The notes under the pieces were generated by a model. The model saw only the letters and a program-made list of their open reading frames with translations. It was not told where the DNA came from and did not search any database. The position numbers and the translations under genes were made by a program. A stretch of DNA of 37,636 nucleotides, from contig SKNW01000041.1 of assembly GCA_007120305.1 (NCBI GenBank), positions 1-37,636 of the forward strand. Direction: 5' to 3'. Each line of letters starts with the position of its first letter. The first letter of the stretch is position 1. The stretch comes from Gemmatimonadota bacterium (GTDB lineage: Bacteria > Gemmatimonadota > Gemmatimonadetes > Longimicrobiales > Gaopeijiaceae). Below are positions 18,686-32,721 of this stretch, one piece after another.

Positions 18686-19060
18686 ATGAGTCGGTCGGTG
18701 AACCGTATCTCCCTGCTGGGGCATGTCGGCCGGGACCCCGAAGTGCGCCAGACCCAGAACGGAACCAGGGTCGCGAACATCTCCGTGGCCACGAATCACA
18801 CCGTGGGCGCCGGAGGAGAGTCCCCGAGAGAGCGGACCGAATGGCACCGCGTCACCCTGTGGGGCGGGCTGGCCGCCTTCGCCGAGGAGTACGTTCGGAA
18901 GGGGGACCGGGTGTACCTGACGGGACGGCTCGAGTACGACGCCTACGAACGGGAGGGTGTCACGATCCCCACGGCCGAAATCCATGCCGGCGAACTGGTG
19001 CTCCTCACCCCACGAAAGGGGGTGGATCACGAGGACACGTTCCAGGAGGCAGCCGCCTGA
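18686..19060 (+). CDS. ssb: Single-stranded DNA-binding protein, short form without acidic tip
   Basis: A 124-residue OB-fold protein. It opens with SVNRISLLGHVGRDPEVRQT and has RTEWHRVTLWGGLAAFAEEYVRKGDRVYLTGRL, the core SSB signature, with the aromatic residues used for ssDNA stacking. Typical bacterial SSB is 150-180 residues and ends in a Gly/Pro-rich linker plus an acidic tip (DDDIPF type) that recruits repair proteins. Here the chain stops at about residue 110 of the fold plus HEDTFQEAAA, with no tip. ATG at 18686 follows a perfect AAGGAGG (18674-18680) at 5-nt spacing, the best ribosome site in the window. It is 129 nt after polA and convergent with the sigma gene. Confidence 0.94.
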   Translation: MSRSVNRISLLGHVGRDPEVRQTQNGTRVANISVATNHTVGAGGESPRERTEWHRVTLWGGLAAFAEEYVRKGDRVYLTGRLEYDAYEREGVTIPTAEIHAGELVLLTPRKGVDHEDTFQEAAA

Positions 19061-19188: not shown

Positions 19189-20049
19189 TCAGTTGCTGCT
19201 CCAGAACGCCGACAGGGAGTCGCCGTGAGGGCTTTCGCGAAGCTTCTCGAAGGCCCGGTTCCGAATCTGCCGAATTCGCTCCCGCGTCACGCCCAGGAGG
19301 GAACCGATCTCCTCGAGCGTACGCTCCTCACCGTCGTCCAGCCCGTAATAGAGGTAGAGGATCTTGCGTTCCCGCTCGGTGAGGTAGTTCTCGAACATGG
19401 ACTCGAGGAAATCCCGCCGCGCGGTGGCCTCGACGCTCTCCTCGATGTCTCCCGTATCCGCCCCGGCGAAGCGCTCGCCGAACGAGGCACTGTCCCGATC
19501 GCTGCGGTCCACGGGTGCGTCCAGCGAGAGCTCGCTGGCGGCGACCCGGCGCAGGGCCCGGACGGTGTCCACCGGCTCGGCCATCTCCTCGGCGATTTCC
19601 TGGTCTGTCGGAGAGCGTCCGAGGGACTGTGTCAGAGCCGTGTCGGTCCGGGCCAGGCGTGCCAGGTTGGAATTCTGGTTGAGGGGGATCCGGACCGAGC
19701 GGGTCTGTTCAGCCAGGGCCTGAAGAACCGTCTGCCGGATCCACCAGACCGCGTAGGAGATGAACTTCACCCCCTTGTCGGGATCGAACTTCTTCACGGC
19801 CTTGAGCAACCCCTCGTTCCCGATGCATACCAGCTCGGCCAGTCCCAGGCCTCGCCCCTGGTACTTCTTCACGTAGGAGATGACGAACCGAAGATTGGCC
19901 GTGACCAGTCGCTCCGCGGCTTCCTTGTCACCGGACCGGGCCCGTCGAGCCAGGGCCCGCTCCTCTTCCGGATCCTGGATCAGGGGGTACTTCTCCACAT
20001 CCTGAAGGTACTGATCGAAGGAGTCCAGACCGCGAGAAGACGAGAACAT
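19189..20049 (-). CDS. Sigma-70 family RNA polymerase sigma factor, RpoD/SigA-like short form
   Basis: A 286-residue group 1/2 sigma factor without region 1.1. Region 1.2 is DSFDQYLQDVEKYPL (9-23), region 2.1 ANLRFVISYVKKYQGRG, region 2.3-2.4 GVKFISYAVWWIRQTVLQALAEQTRSVRIP, region 3 about 125-200, and region 4 ends with the HTH RTLEEIGSLLGVTRERIRQIRNRA. Region 2.2 is odd: AELVCIGNEGLLKAVKKFD (71-89) has CIGN where the family has QEGN. ATG at 20047-20049 is chosen; the longer frame would begin inside the promoter. The leader is about 180 nt. The residues that read the -10 box are kept, so it should use ordinary TATAAT-like promoters, perhaps for a stationary or stress regulon. Confidence 0.95.
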   Translation of the reverse strand: MFSSSRGLDSFDQYLQDVEKYPLIQDPEEERALARRARSGDKEAAERLVTANLRFVISYVKKYQGRGLGLAELVCIGNEGLLKAVKKFDPDKGVKFISYAVWWIRQTVLQALAEQTRSVRIPLNQNSNLARLARTDTALTQSLGRSPTDQEIAEEMAEPVDTVRALRRVAASELSLDAPVDRSDRDSASFGERFAGADTGDIEESVEATARRDFLESMFENYLTERERKILYLYYGLDDGEERTLEEIGSLLGVTRERIRQIRNRAFEKLRESPHGDSLSAFWSSN

Positions 20050-20320: not shown

Positions 20321-22204
20321 TCATCGGCCCGAGGGGACCCGGTTCACCCCGGGAAAACGGGTGGAAACGCCGCTCCTCCGCGCCCGTCCCAGGGACTCGC
20401 TCCGGAAGGTGTCCAGGATCCCTGCCCACTCCCGGGCCTGAAGGATGATCCGGGGGCCGTCCCTGCCGTCCCCCATGGTTTCGTTCGTACCCAGGGGGAA
20501 GGCTACATCGAGGCGTACCACGGAAGCGCTCCCTGCGGGAAAGCCGATCCGGAGTCCGCCTCCCAGCGTGCCCCGCCACCCCGAGGGCTCGGCCCACGGA
20601 GCATCTCCCGCCTCGATTCGACCGACGTCGGTGAAGAGGGTTGCGCCCAGGTCCGCAAGGTCGGGAAACGGAGAAGGGAGGCGAAGGCGATGCTCCGCCG
20701 TCACCACCACGCGTCGCCCCCCCGGAAACCGGGTTTCGGCATATCCGCGCACCCCGTCGGGCCCTCCGAGCAGGAGCTGGAAAGGGGCCTGCGTGTTCCA
20801 CCCTCCCTGCGCCGACACCTTGAGCACCAGCGTCTGGGGGAGAGAGGTGGGGATCTGGCGGTACAGAAAGCCGTGCGCCTCGCCGAGGATATCCCGGGGG
20901 CCGGTGTGCTCTATCTCTTCACCGGGCCCGACGTCGAGGGACCGGCCCCCCTGCCTTCCCTCCAGCGAAAGGTACAGCTGGCCGACCCACGGCCCTGACG
21001 ACACCCCCCCGAAGAGGTCACCCCGAAGAAAGATGTCCCTGGGTCCGGATCCTCCCACGGCGGGACCGAGAGACAGGAGGATCTCCCGTCCCACCGGAAC
21101 GTCCTGGACACCGGTCAGGGCGTCCAGCCCCCGGCGCTCCACGTAGCCGACGCGCCGGACGCCCAGGAGAAGATTCAGGCGGGTCGCCTCCCGGGTCCCA
21201 AGCTGAGTCCTGAGGGGAAGGGCCACCGAGTCGGGAACCGGGGTCCGGTCGTCGAACGCACCGGCGATCACGCCTTCGACCTCGGCGGAGCTCCCCGGGC
21301 GGATCCATTCCCGGGAGAATCCCCCGCCCAGGAGAAAGAAGCGGCCCGAGGTCCCGAAGCGGCGCGCGCCGGTGATCTCCAGGCTTCCCGCCTCCAGGGG
21401 AGCGACCAGCTGCGACCATGGAAGTCCCTCCGGGAGATTCCAGGTGAAGAGATCCTGCCTCGAAGAGGCTCGCTGCCGAAAGGCGAAGGTACCGATCTCC
21501 CCCACGAAGGGATGGAGGATGGCCTGGCTCCATGCGGTCCCCACCCGTGTCCGGCCGCCCGACGTTGAAACGTCCCAGTTGCTCCCCTGAAGGCGCGGGA
21601 TCTCGAAGAGCCCGCCGACCTCCTGGCGCTCATCGACGTCCACGTAGTACCCCCCGAGCGAAATTCCCCGGCCGAGGAAATTCTCCTCCACGAGCGACAC
21701 CCCCCGGAGCTTCATCCCTCCATCGAAGGTGATGTCGCCCGCAACCTTCGTGGTCCATTCGTCGCGGGTCTCCACCACCAGGTGCCGGGAGCCATCCTCC
21801 TGGGGCACCGAAAAGACATCGGCCGAGGCAACGAAGCGAAATTCCCGGAGAATCCGGGCGCTCTCGCGGGTGAGCCCCGGGTCGTAGCAGTCGCCTACCT
21901 CCAGGAGCAGCTCGGCCTCGATGAAGTCCGGACGGGTCCGGACATGAATCCGGTTGGCCAGACGATAGGCCCAGCGGATCCTCGGGTCGTCGGGGAGCGA
22001 GGCCGGATCGAAGACCGAGTGATTGTCGATGAAGATCCGGGAGACGTGCCCCTGCGGACAGACGGCTTGCACCCGGGGGAGGGCCGCAGCGGAGGGGGCC
22101 GAGGGTCCCTGGGCCAGGACCTCTTCCGTCGAGGACGCGGTTCCCAGGACCCCCAGGAGTCCCGCCGTGAGCAGGGCGAGCCTGGAGGAAGAGCGAAGGA
22201 CCAT
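20321..22204 (-). CDS. Omp85/BamA-like outer-membrane protein with one POTRA-like domain
   Basis: A 627-residue protein. The start ATG at 22202-22204 gives a clean signal peptide (VLRSSSRLALLTAGLLGVLG, cleavage near VLAQG). Residues of about 50-160 form a single POTRA-like unit: RIFIDNHSVFD, then LEVGDCYDPGLTRESARILREFRFV and LVVETRDEWTT. The rest has alternating polar/hydrophobic strands of a beta barrel, with GGPDGVRGYAETRFPGGRRVVVTAEHRLRLP resembling the conserved L6/VRGF region of Omp85 (here VRGY). BamA has five POTRA domains, so this is a TamA/surface-antigen-type relative, not BamA. Unusually, about 35 basic residues follow the last likely strand, so the chain does not end in an aromatic residue. 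Role probably export or outer-membrane biogenesis. Confidence 0.8.
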   Translation of the reverse strand: MVLRSSSRLALLTAGLLGVLGTASSTEEVLAQGPSAPSAAALPRVQAVCPQGHVSRIFIDNHSVFDPASLPDDPRIRWAYRLANRIHVRTRPDFIEAELLLEVGDCYDPGLTRESARILREFRFVASADVFSVPQEDGSRHLVVETRDEWTTKVAGDITFDGGMKLRGVSLVEENFLGRGISLGGYYVDVDERQEVGGLFEIPRLQGSNWDVSTSGGRTRVGTAWSQAILHPFVGEIGTFAFRQRASSRQDLFTWNLPEGLPWSQLVAPLEAGSLEITGARRFGTSGRFFLLGGGFSREWIRPGSSAEVEGVIAGAFDDRTPVPDSVALPLRTQLGTREATRLNLLLGVRRVGYVERRGLDALTGVQDVPVGREILLSLGPAVGGSGPRDIFLRGDLFGGVSSGPWVGQLYLSLEGRQGGRSLDVGPGEEIEHTGPRDILGEAHGFLYRQIPTSLPQTLVLKVSAQGGWNTQAPFQLLLGGPDGVRGYAETRFPGGRRVVVTAEHRLRLPSPFPDLADLGATLFTDVGRIEAGDAPWAEPSGWRGTLGGGLRIGFPAGSASVVRLDVAFPLGTNETMGDGRDGPRIILQAREWAGILDTFRSESLGRARRSGVSTRFPGVNRVPSGR

Positions 22205-31812: not shown

Positions 31813-32721
31813 ATGGCGACCAGCACGCCGCCGAAGGGTCGAAAGAAGAAGTCCCGCTCGGGGAATCCCCTGAACGGGTTTGACGCGTCCATCGAGGAGC
31901 AGTCCGCTCTCGACCAGTACCTGCGCGACGTGAGTCGCCACGAGCTCATCACCCCTGATCGGGAGAAGGAGCTGGGCGCCCTGGCGCAGGCCGGCGACGA
32001 GGAGGCGGTTCAGGAACTGGCCCGGGCCAACCTGAGGTTCGTGATCTCGGTGGCCAAGAAGTACCAGAACCGGGGTGTTTCCCTCACCGACCTGATCCAG
32101 GAGGGGAATGTCGGCCTCGTGACCGCGGCGAGGAAGTTTGATCCCGAACAGGGGGTCAAGTTCATCTCCTACGCCGTATGGTGGATCCGGCAGGCCATTC
32201 TGGCTGCGCTGGCCAACCACGGCCGCTCGGTCCGCGTGCCCCTCAACCGCGCATCCGACCTGGCCCGTATCTTCCGGGAAAAGGAACGCCTCAAGCAGGA
32301 GCTGGGGCGGGAGCCGAACCCGGAGGAGCTTTCCGCGGCCACCGACCTGACCCCGGAGCTCATCGAGTCGCTTCAGACGCTCAACGCCGCCGAGATTCGC
32401 CTCGACGCCCCCATTGGCGACAGCGAGGATTCGCAGCTGGTGGAGCGTTTCATCAATGAAGAGGCGGCGGAGCCTGAGCAGGATGTGGAGGGGCGCCTCC
32501 TTTCCGAGGCGGTTCGGGGGGCCCTGGACACGCTGGAGCCCCGGGATGCCAAGGTTCTGCGTCTCTACTTTGGTCTCGACGGTGAGCGGGAGCACACGCT
32601 GGAGGAGATCGGAAACATGCTGGGCGTGACCCGCGAACGGATCCGCCAGCTCAGGGACCGGGCGCTTCGCCGTCTTCGCGAAGGCGAGAAGGGCGACGCA
32701 CTGGAGTCCTTCGCCGCGTGA
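31813..32721 (+). CDS. Sigma-70 family RNA polymerase sigma factor, RpoD/SigA-like
   Basis: A 302-residue sigma factor without region 1.1. A basic Gly/Ser-rich N-terminus (1-25) precedes region 1.2 (SALDQYLRDVSRHEL). Region 2 is canonical: ANLRFVISVAKKYQNRG, DLIQEGNVGLVTAARKFD (93-110), GVKFISYAVWWIRQAILAALANHGRSVRVP. Region 3 has REPNPEELSAATDLTPELIESL, and region 4 ends in HTLEEIGNMLGVTRERIRQLRDRALRRLR. ATG at 31813 has AAGGAG 10 nt upstream. It differs from the minus-strand sigma factor at 19189-20049 mostly in region 2.2 and 3. It could be the main housekeeping factor or a second SigA-type protein; a longer RpoD elsewhere would make it group 2. Confidence 0.95.
   Translation: MATSTPPKGRKKKSRSGNPLNGFDASIEEQSALDQYLRDVSRHELITPDREKELGALAQAGDEEAVQELARANLRFVISVAKKYQNRGVSLTDLIQEGNVGLVTAARKFDPEQGVKFISYAVWWIRQAILAALANHGRSVRVPLNRASDLARIFREKERLKQELGREPNPEELSAATDLTPELIESLQTLNAAEIRLDAPIGDSEDSQLVERFINEEAAEPEQDVEGRLLSEAVRGALDTLEPRDAKVLRLYFGLDGEREHTLEEIGNMLGVTRERIRQLRDRALRRLREGEKGDALESFAA

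Follow-up and report, generated by a model that had tools for sequence, protein, structure and literature searches.

The acidic residues of region 2.2 (sigma2.2) contact the beta-prime subunit of RNA polymerase, and the ECF43 sigma factors, which are without those residues, are switched on by a phospho-threonine, as described in PMC13147305 and PMC8999054. Anti-sigma binding is reported to hinge on individual residues of region 2 (PMC4383634), and PMC2715106 and PMC10949492 were consulted as well. In the following, the window means the whole stretch of Gemmatimonadota DNA that was analysed, 37,636 nucleotides in length; the sigma factor that it encodes has an altered region 2.2 of its own, and no description of this protein was found in literature searches confined to open-licence papers. 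Like the ECF43 sigmas EcfP and EcfK (PMC13147305, PMC8999054), it has a charge missing from sigma2.2. Unlike those kinase-regulated ECF factors, it has region 3 and acids at residues 72 and 79, which places it outside the ECF43-like charge-gated class, and it carries Cys or Ala rather than Thr at the altered site; Thr and Ser are absent from residues 72-83. From its observed sequence, conservation, tree and co-segregation, the altered helix looks like an old, stable redesign of the polymerase grip, not a random mutation. We consider it probable that this is a working sigma-70 factor with a re-registered core contact, in which Cys or Ala at position 406 (E. coli sigma-70 numbering) belongs to a lineage-wide adjustment of the interface.

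The sigma gene and its class

The window lies on contig 11 of a genome of 103 contigs (75.6% complete); the named relatives that genome_contigs offers for it are MAGs of Gemmatimonadetes and Longimicrobiales. The coding strand of the sigma gene is the minus strand, and the plus-strand frame of the same positions was set aside as meaningless. Orthologues align over residues 1 to 286, and Pfam Sigma70 regions 1.2, 2, 3 and 4 all score above cut-off (62.1, 49.5 and 70.1 bits for regions 2, 3 and 4), which makes the product a member of the sigma-70 family. In having these four regions it resembles the group 1 and group 2 factors RpoD/SigA and RpoS. The best Foldseek matches of its model are SigA and SigmaS chains, and by sequence the top PDB entry is SigA of C. 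difficile (7l7b_F, 1.7e-60). Unlike RpoD and RpoS, it falls far below the equivalog cut-offs (242 against 572 bits for RpoD; 229 against 379 bits for RpoS) and reads ELVCIGNEGL in place of DLIQEGNIGL.

Region 1.1 gave no Pfam match in the protein, which sets it apart from group 1 (primary, RpoD). Bacteroidota-type primary sigmas are likewise not known to have region 1.1, so that its absence alone does not decide against a primary role. Regions 1.2 to 4 without 1.1 fit the group 2 architecture, and the NCBIfam cut-offs for group 3 (SigB/F/G, FliA) were not reached (SigBFG 116.7 against 234 bits; FliA_WhiG 109 against 190 bits). The protein is the third of three short sigmas in its genome. It shares about 40-51% identity, and a region 2.4 of the FISYAVWWIRQ type, with the short RpoD-like sigmas of Bacteroidota and Gemmatimonadota (LINEGN); in the alignment, Y59, V60, G65, I76 and E79 mark its family against other short sigmas. 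With SIG2, the second sigma-70 factor of the same genome, the identity is 48%.

Table 1. Positions in the window of the sigma gene, the residues of its region 2.2 helix and the adjoining or related genes.
Feature	Position	Strand	Basis or count
Sigma-70 family CDS, 286 aa (P0002)	19189..20049	-	Pfam regions, orthologue alignment, ATG at 20049
Helix holding region 2.2, predicted core-binding, codons 70-87	19789..19842	-	AlphaFold2; alignment to E. coli RpoD 401-418
Codon 72 (Glu), sigma-70 D403, acid kept	19834..19836	-	Cys-type E 72/72; Ala-type E 53, D 4 of 57
Codon 75 (Cys), sigma-70 Q406	19825..19827	-	Cys 150, Ala 204 of 354 motif-matching genomes (395 searched)
Codon 76 (Ile), sigma-70 E407	19822..19824	-	Cys-type Ile 71, Val 1 of 72; Ala-type Ile 57/57
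Codon 79 (Glu), sigma-70 I410	19813..19815	-	Glu 71/72 Cys-type, 57/57 Ala-type
ssb-like gene, convergent with sigma gene	18698..19060	+	Neighbour in part of window's own family
Omp85-like outer-membrane protein gene, upstream of sigma gene	20321..22204	-	Pfam Omp85 23.5 against cut-off 24 bits (just below)
Second sigma-70 gene SIG2, canonical LIQEGN	31813..32721	+	Q96 (32098-32100) equivalent of C75

The region 2.2 helix

The preliminary description had pointed to an unusual region 2.2, and this was confirmed: residues 71-89 read AELVCIGNEGLLKAVKKFD, where SIG2 has DLIQEGN. Within the motif ELVCIGNEGL (E72-L-V-C75-I76-G-N-E79-G-L), alignment to E. coli sigma-70 sets E72, C75, I76 and E79 against D403, Q406, E407 and I410. 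The AlphaFold2 model, folded as a single chain and of modest quality overall (mean pLDDT 72.8, pTM 0.42), has an unbroken helix from residue 70 to residue 87, with pLDDT blocks of 78-86. At ideal-helix angles, residues 72, 75, 76, 79 and 83 come to lie at 0, 300, 40, 340 and 20 degrees, all within about 100 degrees. The alignment and the modelled helix, together with the sigma2.2 literature (PMC13147305, PMC8999054), support the earlier placing of the change in the core-contact helix.

The same description took both the Gln and the Glu of this helix to be highly conserved, and this holds for the Glu but not for the Gln. Of 94 non-orthologous sigmas (from Gemmatimonadota, Bacteroidota and others), 93 carry Glu407, and position 406 is variable (N 69, G 13, Q 10, A 1, C 1). 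Thus Glu407 is the norm in this part of the sigma tree and Gln406 is not, which makes the exchange of Glu407 for Ile the striking change. A further change, absent from the earlier account, is E79, which replaces the hydrophobic residue usual at 410 in other sigmas. Across 129 orthologues, residue 76 is Ile in 128 and Val in one, and residue 79 is Glu in 128. Judging from the alignment and the model, the acid looks to have moved one turn along the core-facing side of the helix, from 407 to 410, and not to have been lost; E79 may take over the role of E407. A sigma from Hydrogenothermaceae (L070) reads LIAAGN and is without both Gln406 and Glu407.

An alternative is that the loss of Gln and Glu lowers core affinity, leaving a low-priority sigma that works only when abundant or with a partner. 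We regard this as unlikely. It would agree with the near-invariance of Glu407 in related sigmas and with the reduced core affinity that one substitution in region 2.2 of sigma-32 reportedly causes (Joo et al. 1997); the QE residues are also named as core contacts in PMC13147305. Against a weakened contact stand the acid kept at 72, the acid gained at 79 and the high conservation. E. coli FliA, too, is without Glu at this place, where it reads QAG, so that Glu407 is dispensable in a working sigma; unlike the present protein, FliA keeps Gln406 and a hydrophobic residue at 410. The dependence on a partner that had been suggested earlier is unsupported, as no neighbour gene is common to all clades in the loci of the families compared. 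A working interface is favoured by these same features, E79 being fixed, and we infer that the interface is probably functional.

Fixation and descent across Gemmatimonadota

Matches to the sigma were found in 58 of the 59 nearest genomes, its own included, with the best match per genome 73-100% identical; the 30 best loci read CIGN in 29 cases and CVGN in one. More widely, the DNA pattern ELVx[I/V/M]GNEG is present in 354 of 395 Gemmatimonadota genomes, and x is Cys in 150 and Ala in 204 of them, so that no other residue occurs at this place in the matching genomes. Which of the two is present follows the family: f1, f2, f3 (the window's order), f7 and f9 have Cys, whereas f4, f5 and f6 have Ala. 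The motif is in none of the six f11 genomes. Orthologues were sought in 27 of the 41 motif-negative genomes; six more came to light, each likewise carrying Cys or Ala here, and the pattern had missed them through E72 to Asp, through E79 to Lys or through a cut gene. The other 21, including all six f11 genomes, gave paralogue-level matches only (about 52% identity or less). Locus L168 (G236:C184) holds a diverged second sigma copy, LVSIGNVGL with Ser and one in-frame TAG, perhaps a decaying duplicate, and G020, G159, G004 and G199 match the Cys motif twice, as two gene copies or as assembly duplicates.

The change had been open to dismissal if it were unique to one sequence; the aligned orthologues show it fixed across the phylum sample. 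Sequencing error, drift or a pseudogene therefore has practically no probability: the motif recurs in 354 of 395 genomes, its Cys/Ala split follows family, and internal stops are absent from the orthologues among the matches listed. Codon 75 varies synonymously only, being TGC in 62 and TGT in 12 of 74 distinct Cys-type DNA sequences, and GCN (GCG, GCC, GCT or GCA) in 63 of 63 Ala-type sequences. To judge by these codons, each of the two residues is maintained although silent positions drift. An origin of the motif in viruses was also dropped, as the CIGNEGL pattern had 0 matches in viral_contigs. Strict fixation is not special to Cys75: between residues 45 and 125 of the Cys type, 63 of 81 columns show no variation. 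Among the matches listed, most genomes of the family have an orthologue with 89-95% identity; the corresponding values are 85-92% for SIG2 in its closest rows and at most 79% for the RpoD-like sigma in the rows available, in genome sets that are not matched with those of the orthologue.

The tree comprises 111 rows, 66 of the 130 usable distinct orthologues and 45 of the 94 other sigmas after thinning by identity. All orthologues form one clade apart from the 45 other sigmas (SH-aLRT 99), and in this separate clade the protein differs from the short RpoD-like sigmas. The Ala type is also one clade (SH-aLRT 95), such that a single Cys/Ala change suffices; the outgroup state at 406 is N, Q or G, which fits either direction of that change. 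The window sigma is an ancient third sigma paralogue. It would be a group-2-like factor, either alternative or of a second housekeeping type, that had arisen before the split of the Gemmatimonadota families holding it. One non-orthologous sigma (L160; G214, family f8) has Cys at 406 with Glu407 kept, as LICEGN.

Gene neighbours, SIG2 and the beta-prime clamp

The genes around the sigma gene differ by family. In part of the loci of f1, the window's own family, ssb and polA are convergent and an Omp85-like gene lies upstream. The Ala families (f4-f6) have aroB upstream in nearly all loci of sufficient length, and many also show PduO and glcD; f3 loci have a FabF-like neighbour, and f2 loci one of the CMD family. 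The names ssb, polA, PduO, FabF and glcD are ones that we take from sequence likeness and not from a family scan. In f9, the sigma gene is convergent with genes for VKOR and a DsbA-like thioredoxin in 6 of 6 loci, and a second DsbA-like gene lies upstream in 5 of the 6. In f7, VKOR-DsbA is near the sigma gene in 12 of 14 loci (L222 and L224 are the exceptions), and 6 of the 14 have the cytochrome c maturation genes ccmG and ccmH upstream. In f9 (L207-L212) and most of f7 (L213-L226), the VKOR/DsbA-like genes are convergent with the Cys-type sigma gene and no more than about 2.7 kb from it; in L034 and L035, VKOR-DsbA is about 4 kb away.

Sensitivity to redox through the cysteine had been put forward as a property of this sigma, and as a general property it fails on the Ala found in 204 genomes of three families. 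A narrower proposal would confine the switch to the Cys families, where Cys75, a lone cysteine, would become oxidised or thiolated in free sigma and so gate core binding. We hold this to be quite improbable. In this proposal, the altered charge or bulk of the beta-prime-facing patch would block or restore binding, like the phospho-threonine of ECF43 with other chemistry. In its favour, Ser never occurs at 75 among the motif-matching genomes, though one base turns Cys into Ser, and 67 of 73 distinct Cys-type sequences contain no Cys other than Cys75. For f7 and f9, two of the five Cys families, the thiol-gene neighbours point circumstantially to a thiol link, and EcfP and EcfK are a precedent for a charge-gated sigma2.2 (PMC13147305, PMC8999054). 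These points have to be set against the Ala at the same place and against a fixation that Cys75 has in common with most of region 2. Moreover, disulphide genes adjoin the sigma gene in none of the loci of the window's own family, and VKOR has no match in the window's genome, itself 75.6% complete. The link to the neighbours was noticed in hindsight and may stem from the common descent of f7 and f9.

The preferred reading, a working sigma with a re-registered contact, draws on what the rest of the interface does in the same families. Among 30 genomes searched for SIG2, one of which gave no match (L302, a second SIG2 copy of G022, is not counted apart), all 18 from Cys families have Gln at position 406 and all 11 from Ala families have Gly there. 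Thus both sigmas differ at 406 between the same families; as the two paralogues do so by different letters, this speaks against gene conversion. SIG2, unlike the window sigma, keeps Glu407, but f9 has LIQQGN, with Glu407 replaced by Gln in 5 of 5 (L283, L284, L285, L289 and L292). The third, RpoD-like sigma has Asn in both kinds of family, as read in two loci of f1 and one of f4 only.

The beta-prime clamp of the window's genome is 81% identical to E. coli 241-330, with R275 and R278 kept and R281K, and since this clamp is ordinary, a special beta-prime matched to the odd sigma was rejected. The tip of the clamp reads NNRLKKL-x-(E/D/A)-(M/L) in all 13 genomes examined from Cys families and NNRL-(Q/M/K)-KLI-(Q/S/M)-H in all 7 from Ala families, so that 284-285 are Glu/Asp/Ala then Met/Leu in the former and Q/S/M then His in the latter; the outgroup f11 is Cys-type-like in 4 of 4. 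Within an otherwise nearly invariant helix pair, f4, f5 and f6 (L259-L261, L264-L266, L303) show K280 to Q/M, E284 to Q/S/M and M285 to His. As a DNA pattern, NNRLKKL occurs in 37 of 42 Cys-family genomes, 1 of 72 Ala-family genomes (G147), 5 of 6 from f11 and 0 of 1 from f8. G147 has Ala in this sigma and Gly in SIG2 but keeps K280; therefore, not all interface changes came together.

The co-segregation of Cys/Ala with Gln/Gly rests on one branch and counts as one phylogenetic event. In an unbiased scan over 270 columns, this sigma has 11 clade-diagnostic sites and SIG2 has 4, with one overlap, which gives P = 0.15 for any overlap and 4/270 = 0.015 for a site named beforehand; beta-prime has 3 diagnostic columns in the 44 clamp-helix columns against 2.2 expected (68 of 1342 overall). 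A statistically strong co-evolution was therefore dropped, given the any-overlap P and the clamp enrichment. The same figures agree with a neutral clade marker, in which 406 tolerates change, as N, G, Q, A or C there in the 94 other sigmas would allow, and the Cys/Ala and Gln/Gly switches fell on the same branch by chance, with no connection between them. We find this rather doubtful, because each state is completely fixed with saturated synonymous sites, unlike free tolerance. The co-segregation is suggestive and would fit a lineage-wide tuning of the sigma-core interface, and we infer that residues of the interface may have co-evolved.

We propose the following for a re-registered, working contact. 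The acid at 407 would have given way to Ile and a new acid at 410 would have arisen on the same helical face, with 406 holding a small residue. The window sigma would bind an ordinary beta-prime clamp that the canonical sister sigmas also use. Cys or Ala at 406 would be a lineage-fixed choice following a wider change of the sigma-core interface, seen perhaps in the Gln or Gly of the second sigma and in a beta-prime clamp tip of E/D-M or Q/S/M-H. A bolder version, which we consider very improbable, would combine the re-registered helix with the single interface thiol of five families, such that entry to RNA polymerase is set directly by redox without an anti-sigma factor; Ala in the sister families would lock a constitutive state, with accompanying changes in the second sigma and at the tip of the beta-prime clamp.

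Region 2.2 is often regarded as a fixed handle by which all sigmas grip RNA polymerase. The Gemmatimonadota sigma is a natural, phylum-wide and well-replicated redesign of this handle, beside two canonical sigmas on the same core. The clean Cys/Ala and Gln/Gly contrast between sister families offers a ready test of sigma-core matching and sigma competition.
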